The position numbers were made by a program, and so were the translations under genes. Positions 13,964 to 18,334 of a stretch of DNA of 37,370 bases are shown here, one piece after another (position 1 is the stretch's first letter; each line of letters begins with the position of its first letter). The notes under the pieces were generated by a model. It was not told the origin of the DNA. It saw only the letters and a list, made by a program, of their open reading frames with translations, and searched no databases. The DNA comes from Candidatus Hydrogenedentota bacterium (GTDB taxonomy: Bacteria; Hydrogenedentota; Hydrogenedentia; Hydrogenedentales; SLHB01). The DNA is taken from NCBI GenBank assembly GCA_016215105.1, contig JACRLJ010000005.1, positions 35,589-72,958 on the forward strand, written 5' to 3'.

Positions 13964-14475
13964 CCTATATCACCTATATATAAGGGGCATCTGTTTCGGC
14001 TGTTCGAGGCCCAGGGAGGCAGGTCTCGGGTTCCGGTGTGGGAGGTCGGCAGCGGGGTCGAGTTCGTGCGCGAGACGAGGGGTGTTTGGTTGTCGGAGCG
14101 CCGTCTGGTCTGGGAAGGGTCCGAAGGCGGCCGAGGGGTTTCGCGTGCGAGACGAGGGGTGGTTTATTGACAGAATCAGCCGTTCTTGCACTTTCCGGTG
14201 GTGTATAGGGTAGGCAGAAACGCGAGACAAGGGGGATTTAATTTCCATATCTATAGTAATATCAATATTATCTCTACATACATAATACGCAGTGTTGCTG
14301 TTCTAAGATTGTCGCACGTTTCCCTGTTGCTTCTTTTTGCTTGGGTCTGTGACTCGCCCCAATTACGGAAGCTGCATATCGTGGCAAGAGTGGCAGCGCT
14401 GAAGTTTGGTATACGTCAGGGTATCCTGCCGCTCGCTTGCTTCTCGTGACCTCGCACGTTTCGAGAGGACTGTGG
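13964..14475. other. Intergenic region at the 3' edge of the ROCO-phosphoesterase module
   Basis: These 512 bases lie between two convergent genes and hold no convincing coding sequence. Two parts stand out: a GC-rich part with three spaced copies of a 13-base motif (14071-14235), and a sharply AT-rich block at about 14232-14290 that includes the small inverted repeat TAATAT-CA-ATATTA (14257-14270). The abrupt change in composition next to a probable defence gene pair may mark an insertion boundary. No clear terminator was seen. Confidence 0.6.
14071..14235 (+). repeat. Three spaced copies of a CGAGACGAGGGGT-like motif
   Basis: CGAGACGAGGGGT occurs at 14071-14083 and 14148-14160, and a variant CGAGACAAGGGGG at 14223-14235, in the same orientation with spacings of 77 and 75 bases. 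The sequence between copies is only loosely similar. It may be a degenerate interspersed repeat or a set of binding sites. Confidence 0.5.
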
Positions 14476-15363
14476 CTAGACACAAAGCTCCACTATGCGG
14501 CGGGTAACTCGCCTCGATACTCCACCTATTTGGTACTGCCAGAAGCGGCACACTTGGCCACCTTCCTTGTCGAGCGGTTGCGTGCTGGCGGGAGCGCCGA
14601 CGATCGTGATTCCATTTACCTGTCGGCATTCCTCAAGGTGCAGGTGACCATGCAGCACCAGCCGCACGCGGTGCGACAGGCACAGGAGCCGTAGCGCCCG
14701 CCGCTCGCTTTCTGGAATTTGATGTGCAAGCCGCGACACGCTCGACATGGGCTTATTTCCTCGCTTCAGGGCTGTCTGTGATTCAGGGATATTGGGGCTA
14801 TGGTGCAGCGCCACTATCTTTACCGGCACGTCGCGGAATTGGTAAAGCAGACCCGCAAAGCGGACTAGATCGAAGTGAGCGATCACGCCTACAGCATTCG
14901 TGGCAGACGACGTGTTGCCAAGATTGTTCGAGTTAAGTACGAAAACGACCGTATCGTCGTGAATCCTGTGCATAGAAGGAAATCGCGTCGGCTGGCCGCC
15001 CATACGCAGCCCCTTCGCCATGCGTGCCATGTCCAGCTCCCTGTTCTTGGCTGAACGACGCCGAAGGCCCAGGCAGCACGCGTCGTGATTACCCGGCGCA
15101 ACGATTACCCGGCTCCGCAGACCCGCCAGATCGATCGCGTCCCAGAAGACCTCCCAAGCCTCAGGCTTCCCGCGGTCCGTCACGTCGCCAGTAACAATTA
15201 CCGCGTCGGCCTCCTGGACCGTGCGACTGCTGACGATTTGTCGGAAGTACCGGTTCATTCCCTTCAAACGCCCAAAGAGCTTCGGTTCGCTTCGAGTGGC
15301 GCCGTCCGAGGCCGTCAGGTGAAGGTCGGAAATGTGTACGATCCTCGTCTTGTGTTGAGCCAT
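14476..15363 (-). CDS. Calcineurin-like metallophosphoesterase beside ROCO protein
   Basis: Cytoplasmic 295-aa phosphoesterase with no signal peptide. The full ligand set of the calcineurin-like/CpdA-type fold is present: D13 and H15 in HISDLHL, D60 in GDVTDRG, N92-H93 in APGNHD, H187-H188 in ALHHSP, and H238-H242 in LHGHLH. Relatives hydrolyse cyclic nucleotides, nucleotide phosphoesters or nucleic-acid ends. The substrate cannot be read from the sequence. The start is ATG at 15363 with a GAGAG stretch just upstream. The gene follows the LRR-Roc-COR gene on the same strand, and the two frames overlap by 203 bases as sequenced, which is probably caused by a frameshift in the upstream gene. 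Tight linkage suggests that it acts in the same pathway, for instance making or removing a nucleotide signal or trimming nucleic acid. That link is inference. Confidence 0.9.
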   Translation of the reverse strand: MAQHKTRIVHISDLHLTASDGATRSEPKLFGRLKGMNRYFRQIVSSRTVQEADAVIVTGDVTDRGKPEAWEVFWDAIDLAGLRSRVIVAPGNHDACCLGLRRRSAKNRELDMARMAKGLRMGGQPTRFPSMHRIHDDTVVFVLNSNNLGNTSSATNAVGVIAHFDLVRFAGLLYQFRDVPVKIVALHHSPNIPESQTALKRGNKPMSSVSRLAHQIPESERRALRLLCLSHRVRLVLHGHLHLEECRQVNGITIVGAPASTQPLDKEGGQVCRFWQYQIGGVSRRVTRRIVELCV

Positions 15364-18334
15364 GAGTCTCTCTTAGTGTCGTGTGGAAGCGACTTCCGAG
15401 AGTCCTAGATTGTTCCCGGCAGCGGGGAATCCAAAACCTAGGGGTAAGCAGCTCGATCTCTGGGCAGATATCCCGCAACTGCTGTTCTTGGTGGCCCGTC
15501 AGCGCCACGTTGCTGCACAAGACGTATTTCACCCATGGCAGTTTCTCGCGCGTTAGCAGCGCACTTCGCAGGGACTTCTCGGCCTTGGTGACACTGAACT
15601 TTCCGCTTGACTCTTCTACCGACTTGCATTGATAGGCAATCTTCTTTTCGGCCCAGTACAGGTCCACCCCACCTTCCGGGGGGGTGCGCTGGTAAATCTT
15701 GTCGGTCTTCTCGTAGCGGTTCAAGACATCGCAACAAAACACCTCCCATGCATCCGCGAAAGAGGTCTGCGGCTCGATGACGAACAGCGGCGGGTAAAGA
15801 TGCGATTCACCGAAGTCTCGGAGCCACGGGTCCTCGATACCGTCGATAAGCTCGGTCACGGCGTAACGCTTATTCGTTCCTGGCGGGATGAAATCCCTCA
15901 CCTGTTGCTGTTCCAGAGTAAGTAAGTGCTCATATGACACTACGATATCCGGGTTATCCGGCAGCGGTACCATCTGCTGGGGCAGCAGGTTGGGAATAGT
16001 CGAGTGGATGCGGGCAAACTCATCGCGCAAGACGGACAGGAAGGCCCGGCGGCCTCCTTCGGGGCCGATGACGGCGATGTGCATCCGCCCCTTGTCCGTA
16101 TCGCTGCGAACAAGGGCCTTGCACCCGTCAAACTGCAACACGGAGCCGCTACGCCAGTAAACGGGCGGGGTGGTCAGGTTCTCGTAGCGGCGGACGATGA
16201 ATCGGCAGATGATACCCCCAGGCAATACGTCGTAGTGGTACTCGAACCGTAGCGCGTCCGCCCACTCACCGAGTTTAGTGGGCTCTTTCTTGGGCAGCAG
16301 TTCGGCCACGAGCCACTTATGGTCATCGCTCACGGTAAAGCACAACTCGAACTTGTGCATCATGCCCATGATGAAAGGGTGACAATGGGCAGGATGGGCA
16401 CGCCCCTTGAGGATACGGGATAGGTCGGATTTGCTCAGCACGCCGCCTGCGTCAGCAAGGGCATCGTCGTTGAGGATTTTGTACACGCCCTGCGTTACCC
16501 AGTGCGGGTTGAGCACGCTCATTTCCCGCAGGGGTAGCGGGCTGTCGGGGTCGGTGAAACTCAGTACGCTGCCAAGGTCATGCAAGAAACGTAGTAAGCG
16601 ATCCTGCTGATCGCGTTCGCGCACCCCATTGTCGTGACACAGCGTATAGTAGTCGCGGATATCGATGTAGTTCCTTGCCTGCGCCATCTCCTCGAGATCT
16701 TGCTTGACTGTGAAGTAGGCTTTGGGCAGCGGATCGAATATATGGCGCATGGCGGGGCTACGAATCTGCTTTTCGATGCCCGCCTTAAGTTGCTTAATCC
16801 CGACGCCGTTGTCGCACGAGGTTTTGAAAAAACCGCGGATACTGGGGTAGTCCTTTTGCAGGCGAGTTTCGTTTAGGTCCAGGTGGTGGGTGTCGCTTTT
16901 GTTGGTCACGATCAGTACCGGCGCATCGCCGCCGAAACTGCGAATGATCTTGAGCCAGTAGTGAATATTGCTTTCGTTCTCGCCCTTGCGGGCGTCCAGG
17001 ACCAGGAGATATACCGTCCGCTTGGTCAAGAAGAACTGGTGTGTGGCGTGCATAATCTCTTGGCCGCCAAAGTCCCAGAAGTTCACCTGAACTTTCTTGC
17101 CTTTGTTCTTACCTGGCACACTCCAGGTCTTCTCGATATAGATTCCCTCAGTTTTCTTTTCTCGCTTGTTAAAGGTGTCGTAGACGATCCGCTTTACCAA
17201 AGAGGTCTTCCCGACGCTCCCTTGTCCTACCAGGATAACTTTAACTTCATTCAGGGGCCGACGGTCGGTGGCGCCATTGGTGCGGAAGTAGTAATCCAGA
17301 ATGTCAGCGGGTACGGCCGGCGTCTTGTCGCGGCGAACTTCTCCGAGGATTTCCGGTGGAATGCCAAGACCGTCATTGAAGTGGAGATAGAGCTTTTCCA
17401 GTGAAGTGAGTCGGCCGACCTCGGGGGGTAGCGTGGAAAGCTGATTGTTGCTGAGGTCCAAGTGCGTCAGCGCGGTGAGTTGGCCGACCTCGGGGGGCAG
17501 CGCGGAAAGCTGATTCTTGCTGAGATCCAGTTTCGTCAGCGCGGTGAATTGGATTAGCACCGAAGGCAACGTGGAAAGCTGATTGTCGTTGAGGATCAGG
17601 GTCGTCAATGTGGCGAGTTGGCCAATTTCGGGTGGCAGCGTGGAAAGCTGATTGCTGTTGAGGTAGAGCGTCGTCAGTGCGGTGAGTTGGCAGACCTCTG
17701 GGGGCAGCGTGGAAAGCTGATTGTCGTCGAGGTCAAGAACCAACAGTGCGGTGAGTTGGCCGATTTCGGGGGGCAGCGTGGAAAGCTGATTACTCATGAG
17801 CGTGAGTGACATTAGTGTGGTGAGTTGGCCTACCTCGGGGGGTAGCGAGGAAAGCTGATTGTCGCTGAGGGGGAAGTTCGTCAGTGCGGTGAGTTGGCCG
17901 ATTTCGGGGGGTAGCGTGGAAAGCTGATTGCCGTCGAGGTCTAGAACGAACAATGCGGTGAGTTGGCCGATTTCGGAGGGCAGCGTGGAAAGTCTATTAC
18001 TCGTGAGTATAAGTGTTGTTAGTGTAGTAAGTTTGCCGACCTCGGGGGGTAGCGAGGAAAGCTGATTGTCTTTGAGGTTCAGGTTCGTCAGTGCGGTGAG
18101 TTGGCCGATTTCGGGGGGCAGCGTGGAAAGCTGATTGTCGTTGAGGTTCAGCCTTTGAATGTTTTCTACGCCTGGCTCGCCGAGGAGCTTGCGGAGGTCG
18201 CTGTCCTGGACTTCACACCTGGATAAGTCCAATTCGCGCCAGCCGTTGTTTCTGGCTCGGGTGACTCGGTCCGCGATCTTCTTGGATGAATAGGGAGTCT
18301 TGGAGGTCTTGCGTGTCTGGCGTGTCTTTTTCAT
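15161..18334 (-). CDS. LRR-Roc-COR GTPase (ROCO protein) with C-terminal Mrr-like PD-(D/E)xK nuclease domain
   Basis: Large cytoplasmic switch protein, 1057 codons in the frame as sequenced. After a basic N terminus come twelve leucine-rich repeats of 23 aa (58-333), eleven of them very regular. The Roc GTPase domain has P-loop GQGSVGKTS (370-378), WDFGGQE (420-426), TNKSD (477-481) and a G5-like TSC. The COR domain follows from about 535 to 850, with LHDLG, SVLNPHWVTQGVYKIL and RFIVRR. The C-terminal domain reads as a restriction-endonuclease fold: E864, GGVD (D891) and YQCK (Q902, K904), i.e. the D-Xn-QxK variant of Mrr-like enzymes. The start at 18334 has AGGGG upstream. The last roughly 70 codons are a shadow of the phosphoesterase gene, so the true stop is probably near 15375-15407. 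LRR plus Roc suggests ligand-triggered oligomerisation with nuclease output; no substrate is known. Confidence 0.9.
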   Translation of the reverse strand: MKKTRQTRKTSKTPYSSKKIADRVTRARNNGWRELDLSRCEVQDSDLRKLLGEPGVENIQRLNLNDNQLSTLPPEIGQLTALTNLNLKDNQLSSLPPEVGKLTTLTTLILTSNRLSTLPSEIGQLTALFVLDLDGNQLSTLPPEIGQLTALTNFPLSDNQLSSLPPEVGQLTTLMSLTLMSNQLSTLPPEIGQLTALLVLDLDDNQLSTLPPEVCQLTALTTLYLNSNQLSTLPPEIGQLATLTTLILNDNQLSTLPSVLIQFTALTKLDLSKNQLSALPPEVGQLTALTHLDLSNNQLSTLPPEVGRLTSLEKLYLHFNDGLGIPPEILGEVRRDKTPAVPADILDYYFRTNGATDRRPLNEVKVILVGQGSVGKTSLVKRIVYDTFNKREKKTEGIYIEKTWSVPGKNKGKKVQVNFWDFGGQEIMHATHQFFLTKRTVYLLVLDARKGENESNIHYWLKIIRSFGGDAPVLIVTNKSDTHHLDLNETRLQKDYPSIRGFFKTSCDNGVGIKQLKAGIEKQIRSPAMRHIFDPLPKAYFTVKQDLEEMAQARNYIDIRDYYTLCHDNGVRERDQQDRLLRFLHDLGSVLSFTDPDSPLPLREMSVLNPHWVTQGVYKILNDDALADAGGVLSKSDLSRILKGRAHPAHCHPFIMGMMHKFELCFTVSDDHKWLVAELLPKKEPTKLGEWADALRFEYHYDVLPGGIICRFIVRRYENLTTPPVYWRSGSVLQFDGCKALVRSDTDKGRMHIAVIGPEGGRRAFLSVLRDEFARIHSTIPNLLPQQMVPLPDNPDIVVSYEHLLTLEQQQVRDFIPPGTNKRYAVTELIDGIEDPWLRDFGESHLYPPLFVIEPQTSFADAWEVFCCDVLNRYEKTDKIYQRTPPEGGVDLYWAEKKIAYQCKSVEESSGKFSVTKAEKSLRSALLTREKLPWVKYVLCSNVALTGHQEQQLRDICPEIELLTPRFWIPRCREQSRTLGSRFHTTLRETHGSTQDEDRTHFRPSPDGLGRRHSKRTEALWAFEGNEPVLPTNRQQSHGPGGRRGNCYWRRDGPREA
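17336..18163 (-). repeat. Tandem 69-bp LRR-coding repeats with a 207-bp higher-order unit
   Basis: Twelve consecutive 69-bp units encode the leucine-rich repeats of the ROCO protein. Units 2-4 (17888-18094) and 5-7 (17681-17887) match each other better than neighbouring units do; for example GGTAGCGAGG recurs exactly 207 bases apart (17841 and 18048). This indicates duplication of a three-repeat block and makes the array prone to copy-number change. Confidence 0.9.

Follow-up and report, generated by a model that had tools for sequence, protein, structure and literature searches.

The 37,370-nucleotide stretch of Candidatus Hydrogenedentota DNA analyzed here (hereafter the window), part of a 6.7-Mb draft genome of 171 contigs, contains a ROCO gene whose product is probably a single-chain intracellular immune receptor, combining an LRR sensor, a GTP switch, and a nuclease output. 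This reading draws on sequence comparison, a predicted structure, and analogy with known proteins. A calcineurin-like metallophosphoesterase gene follows on the same strand (Table 1).

Table 1. Features of the ROCO locus; coordinates are those of the window, residues those of the ROCO translation
Feature	Coordinates	Strand	Basis
ROCO ORF, LRR-Roc-CORA-CORB-nuclease (1057 codons)	15161..18334	(-)	Pfam; 71% identical relative L002
LRR array, residues 59-327	17354..18160	(-)	LRR_8/LRR_14, repeat register
Roc GTPase, residues 365-517	16784..17242	(-)	Pfam Roc 1.7e-32; CtRoco structures 3dpu/6hlu
COR-A and COR-B dimerisation/switch domains, residues 537-832	15839..16726	(-)	Pfam
Predicted PD-(D/E)xK (Mrr/Avs4/LmuA-type) nuclease domain, residues 851-970	15425..15784	(-)	PADLOC, hhalign, AlphaFold, purifying selection
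ROCO 3' tail, unlike L002, entering the phosphoesterase gene out of frame	15161..15424	(-)	Codon-position identity
TAA in the phosphoesterase frame, 12 nt 5' of its ATG	15373..15375	(-)	Sequence
Calcineurin-like metallophosphoesterase, 295 aa	14476..15363	(-)	Pfam Metallophos 6e-17

Pfam matches to the ROCO ORF comprise LRR_8 (2.7e-35), Roc (1.7e-32), COR-A (4.2e-40), and COR-B (4e-28); Roc is linked to COR, and Roc, COR-A, and COR-B all score far above the Pfam cut-offs. The Roc-COR region aligns over its full length with that of CtRoco (3dpu/6hlu; E about 1e-75). In direct translation, the GTPase motifs are intact (G1 GQGSVGKTS at 370, G3 WDFGGQE at 420, and G4 NKSD at 478), and the repeat register shows that the LRR array (about residues 59-327), presumed to act as the sensor, consists of 12 units, each 23 residues long. 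A preliminary description of the window had proposed a 12-repeat LRR array followed by Roc and COR; both Pfam and the repeat register agree, and the coordinates, motifs, and residue numbers that it gave are exact by translation. The ROCO protein returned no Pfam match to a STAND or NACHT ATPase, its switch being the Roc GTPase; the protein may work in an NLR-like manner but is not itself a STAND-NTPase NLR.

Behind COR-B lies a domain of approximately 120 residues, carrying E864, D891, Q902, and K904. It has no Pfam match at E-values up to 10; querying the PDB with its sequence returned nothing, and neither NCBIfam nor PHROGs gave a usable match. The PADLOC profile for LmuA does match the domain (0.0011 for the window protein and 5.1e-6 for its relative L002), as does, weakly, that for Avs2 (0.021), both profiles being matched in their N-terminal parts. 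The LmuA profile also picks up Mrr-like proteins from related genomes, and eight of these were compared with both ROCO nuclease domains using hhalign. The resulting alignment (P 0.0011, vs 0.25 and 0.027 for two control profiles) places E over E, D over D, and QCK over QCK, the QxK form; its reported probability is just 20%, because both profiles are shallow.

AlphaFold modeling, built on two sequences and giving one good model of five, predicts an H-E-E-E-H-E-H-E core (H22-37, E43-45, E55-57, E62-65, H78-91, E99-103, H110-119, and E124-126; pLDDT mostly 75-92), with the catalytic residues (27, 54, 65, and 67 in model numbering) on the expected PD-(D/E)xK core elements. The predicted structure has the alpha-beta-beta-beta-alpha-beta core of restriction endonucleases, E, D, and (E/Q)xK included, consistent with the Mrr-type nuclease that the preliminary description had proposed. 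Structural comparison with VIA-align placed AF1548 (Z 11.7) and the N-terminal domain of Avs4 (residues 2-184; Z 10.4) at the top, with Card1 (9.3), Can2 (8.7), Cap4 (6.5), and HamA (6.5) further down, and rows at Z near 6 with RNA polymerase subunits or other proteins taken as background. Cdn1, XisH, and restriction enzymes also appear in the list, and the leading matches are nearly all PD-(D/E)xK nucleases, many of them from defence systems. Foldseek matches were weak (best E 0.006, to MspJI). Codon-position identity of the nuclease core to L002 (0.78/0.83/0.48) indicates purifying selection. Each of these lines is modest, yet all agree; because the profile matches, the Mrr alignment, and the predicted structure converge, the assignment of this domain as a PD-(D/E)xK nuclease, predicted to cut DNA, is mostly supported.

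Searches of genome contigs, of 68 Hydrogenedentota and 386 wider genomes, and of plasmids and viral contigs recovered a single further nuclease-ROCO, L002 (JAKQOG010000020.1; 71% identical), so that the type as found has two members, both from Hydrogenedentota. All four catalytic residues are kept in L002; the preliminary description had proposed the retention of D891, Q902, and K904 in homologues as a check on the nuclease, and the only homologue bears it out. The LRR array is less conserved than Roc-COR between the two proteins (62% vs 81% identity) and has fewer repeats in L002 than the 12 of the window protein; in this comparison of two sequences, the LRR array evolves faster than the switch.

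A third Hydrogenedentota ROCO protein, 48% identical through Roc-COR, carries a TIR domain at its C-terminal end. Across the ROCO proteins compared, this effector position is taken by TIR (L009, L042, and L081), CHAT (L043 and L077), or EAD1 (L037), and other ROCO C-terminal parts contain, as judged by eye, DUF4062-like sequence or membrane segments. These comparisons of sequence support an interchangeable C-terminal effector on a conserved Roc-COR switch, the pattern expected of immune receptors. Separately, ROCO proteins of Photobacterium (L074:7263-10001) and of a Spirosoma plasmid (L036:5209-7986) have a common C-terminal domain, 37% identical over 113 residues, which lacks a Pfam match and shows a nuclease-like GExDI...TIIE pattern with no clear lysine.

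In the receptor that we propose, the LRR array would detect an invader molecule, and Roc-COR would act as a GTP-driven switch as in CtRoco and LRRK2, compact as a resting dimer and opened by GTP binding. By analogy with CtRoco, the LRR array would restrain the nuclease at rest and free it upon ligand recognition; the opened switch would then allow the Mrr/Avs4-type PD-(D/E)xK domain to cut DNA, and the invader would be cleared or the cell killed. With a nuclease behind COR, the GTP switch, one common to LRRK2, could be followed by a simple biochemical assay. If this reading is correct, NLR-like immunity in bacteria would gain a branch built on a GTPase, and the function of bacterial ROCO proteins would gain a defined readout. 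A fuller version of the same proposal, in which an LRRK2-type ROCO GTPase serves as an immune receptor by directly controlling a DNA nuclease on its own chain, and the phosphoesterase is a second enzyme, the whole forming a GTP-driven counterpart of the ATP-driven Avs proteins, is put forward tentatively, at somewhat less than an even chance.

The phosphoesterase itself retains all seven metal ligands (D13, H15, D60, N92, H187, H240, and H242), in line with the intact ligand set noted in the preliminary description, and all are invariant in its nearest relative, a Desulfosarcina protein (45% identical over 99%) located in a CBASS island. Its best NCBIfam match is DS9_1_antiphage (7.9e-14, aligned along 3-255), at a score of 51.4 bits that does not reach the curated cut-off of 420. 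On the Desulfosarcina plasmid (L033:5805-12879), a CBASS locus with a NucC-type protein is immediately followed by successive genes for a PD-(D/E)XK protein, a UvrD-type helicase, and the phosphoesterase, which possibly form a three-gene defence cassette. A Nostoc plasmid (L034:4996-9327) encodes a 1443-residue chain of WD40 repeats, a Roc/Ras GTPase, a metallophosphoesterase, and a CHAT-like C-terminal region, flanked on both sides by NACHT genes. Within the window, two 35-nt direct repeats, 80% alike and 77 nt apart, lie between the phosphoesterase gene and a convergent gene (14063-14174).

The phosphoesterase, which the preliminary description counted as part of the system, was not supported as a conserved partner of the ROCO gene. 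The pair was found only once: no phosphoesterase occurs in the 418 bp remaining on the L002 contig, and none was seen by motif scan in the surroundings examined of other ROCO genes, the single-chain Nostoc fusion excepted. No full-length orthologue was detected among the 67 other Hydrogenedentota, and none in viral contigs or, using the Desulfosarcina relative as query, in phages. The absences from the L002 contig, the other ROCO surroundings, and the other Hydrogenedentota, together with the break in ROCO homology just 5' of the phosphoesterase start, favor the phosphoesterase being an independent neighbor, brought in by rearrangement and without a part in ROCO function. The gene nevertheless lies on the same strand as the ROCO gene with an operon-like junction and resembles DS-9A; its Desulfosarcina relative closes a nuclease-helicase cassette in a CBASS island, and the Nostoc chain unites Roc and phosphoesterase domains with a CHAT-like region. 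We give the independent-neighbor explanation a somewhat less than even chance, and it is compatible with the receptor reading of the ROCO protein. Our working assignment of the phosphoesterase, a weaker claim than that made for the receptor, is that it probably provides the ROCO locus with a second, optional enzyme whose substrate is a nucleotide or nucleic acid.

Genomic context bears on the purpose of the ROCO protein. The preliminary description had set the locus among polysaccharide genes; carbohydrate-active proteins are indeed encoded nearby, though a two-component system is present as well. A change in base composition had also been noted, and it is mild (GC 0.56 and GC3 0.69 for the ROCO gene, vs 0.61 and 0.74 for the next gene). 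Because the shift is mild and the genes at 1.8-9 kb have the same values as the ROCO gene, it gives no sign that the locus is foreign, and composition was discarded as a sign of transfer. A search for mobile-element borders found no tRNA and no Rfam match, with repeats searched within each flank.

Both nuclease-ROCO genes lie outside defence islands, among metabolic or carbohydrate-use genes. This placement, as well as the role of animal ROCO relatives in cell death (DAPK; PMC8195603), would fit a switch for cell death under stress or DNA damage, in which Roc-COR would respond to a signal from inside the cell and the nuclease would then break down the chromosome. However, other ROCO genes do occur beside defence genes. 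Among 13 plasmid ROCO matches (raw counts), one lies between DarTG-like genes (DUF4433 and macro domain) and BREX, one adjoins a type I R-M locus, one is within a type I-F CRISPR-associated transposon (L074, Photobacterium), one is next to MoxR and CHAT genes, and one is a Roc protein among NACHT genes. The effector menu of TIR, CHAT, restriction endonuclease, and EAD is likewise an anti-phage menu. A stress-induced death switch appears unlikely. Effector swapping and the defence neighborhoods of other ROCO proteins support the NLR-like logic of the preliminary description, and we infer a defence function for the ROCO locus. Two ROCO genes on Haliscomenobacter plasmids (L075:4690-7815 and L080:3950-7291) have closely similar C-terminal parts, one of the two lying between DUF4433/macro genes and BREX and the other beside type I R-M genes.

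Less likely again is that the C-terminal domain is a restriction fold that is unable to cleave DNA, either by loss or from the outset, and instead binds nucleic acid or mediates dimerization. It shares little sequence with its structural matches (6-15% identity), as such a reading would have it; against this, E, D, and QxK are kept in both members of the type, across a domain that is 68% identical overall.

At its 3' end, the ROCO ORF extends 203 bp into the phosphoesterase gene and, because of this overlap, residues ~991-1057 of the translation represent the phosphoesterase gene in another frame. Homology to L002 stops at residue 970; the 24 aligned codons beyond it are 21% identical, with codon-position identities of 0.38/0.42/0.42 (no bias), as compared with 0.84/0.94/0.51 across Roc-COR. 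The native protein is likely to end at about residue 970-985. With a one-base shift farther upstream, the ROCO ORF would stop at the TAA listed in Table 1, giving an ordinary operon junction. Because homology and codon bias both end here and a TAA precedes the phosphoesterase ATG, the overlap probably arose through a one-base shift or the loss of a stop codon at the ROCO 3' end rather than by design; in a draft genome of this kind, assembly error may be its source. A programmed fusion of both ORFs was considered and rejected, a frameshift or stop loss being simpler as judged from the reading frames. That the gene is decaying, with the overrun marking a frameshifted, dying ROCO gene or an assembly error, as the tail without homology and the shifted stop might suggest, is very improbable, given a frame open across about 970 conserved codons, functional residues that are all intact, and Roc-COR and nuclease identities of 0.48-0.51 at the third codon position vs 0.78-0.94 at positions 1 and 2.

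Among known systems, the proposed receptor resembles Avs2 and Avs4, whose single chains likewise link a repeat sensor and an NTPase switch to a nuclease that shares this fold. In Avs2 and Avs4, however, the nuclease is N-terminal, and the chain uses a STAND ATPase and a different repeat sensor in place of the Roc GTPase and LRR array. The nuclease domain is also like that of Lamassu LmuA, an Mrr/PD-(D/E)xK effector; LmuA partners the SMC-like LmuB (PMC10586767), and no such gene was found among the scanned proteins of the window, which sets this locus apart from Lamassu. The phosphoesterase shares its catalytic domain with DS-8 and DS-9. The DS-8 phosphoesterase is coupled to a NACHT switch (DefensePredictor, PMC13092281), and catalytic mutants of the anti-phage phosphoesterase of DS-9 lose protection (PMC13092281); the window phosphoesterase differs in having neither a HAD partner nor a NACHT domain, and in having a ROCO gene as its neighbor.

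Prokaryotic Roco proteins have been described as LRR-Roc-COR only (PMC6337361, PMC11052575). The LRR-Roc-COR core of the window protein is common to CtRoco of Chlorobium tepidum (3dpu, 6hlu, 8r4b), whose solved structures show that GTP binding converts a compact dimer into an open monomer as the LRR swings away (PMC11052575); CtRoco differs in that its last 150 residues lack density and an assigned effector (PMC11052575). The closest precedent is a comparative study: LRR-AP-GTPase (Roc)-COR proteins with at least 24 C-terminal effectors were predicted in 2021 to act as counter-invaders (eLife 10:e70394, PMC8195603, Fig. 6D). No report of protection against invaders by this class was found in the literature searched. 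The window protein is like the class in its LRR array, Roc GTPase, COR, and variable C-terminal effector. The effectors named in PMC8195603 are GT4, TIR, DRHyd, caspase, trypsin, FGS, and EADs, with no restriction-endonuclease-fold effector in the text itself, source data aside; the window locus differs in this nuclease effector and in the phosphoesterase gene that follows. Because that study already foretold LRR-GTPase-COR-effector counter-invaders, the window ROCO is, on sequence grounds, a nuclease-armed variant of a class already predicted, and one that makes the 2021 prediction (PMC8195603) directly testable.
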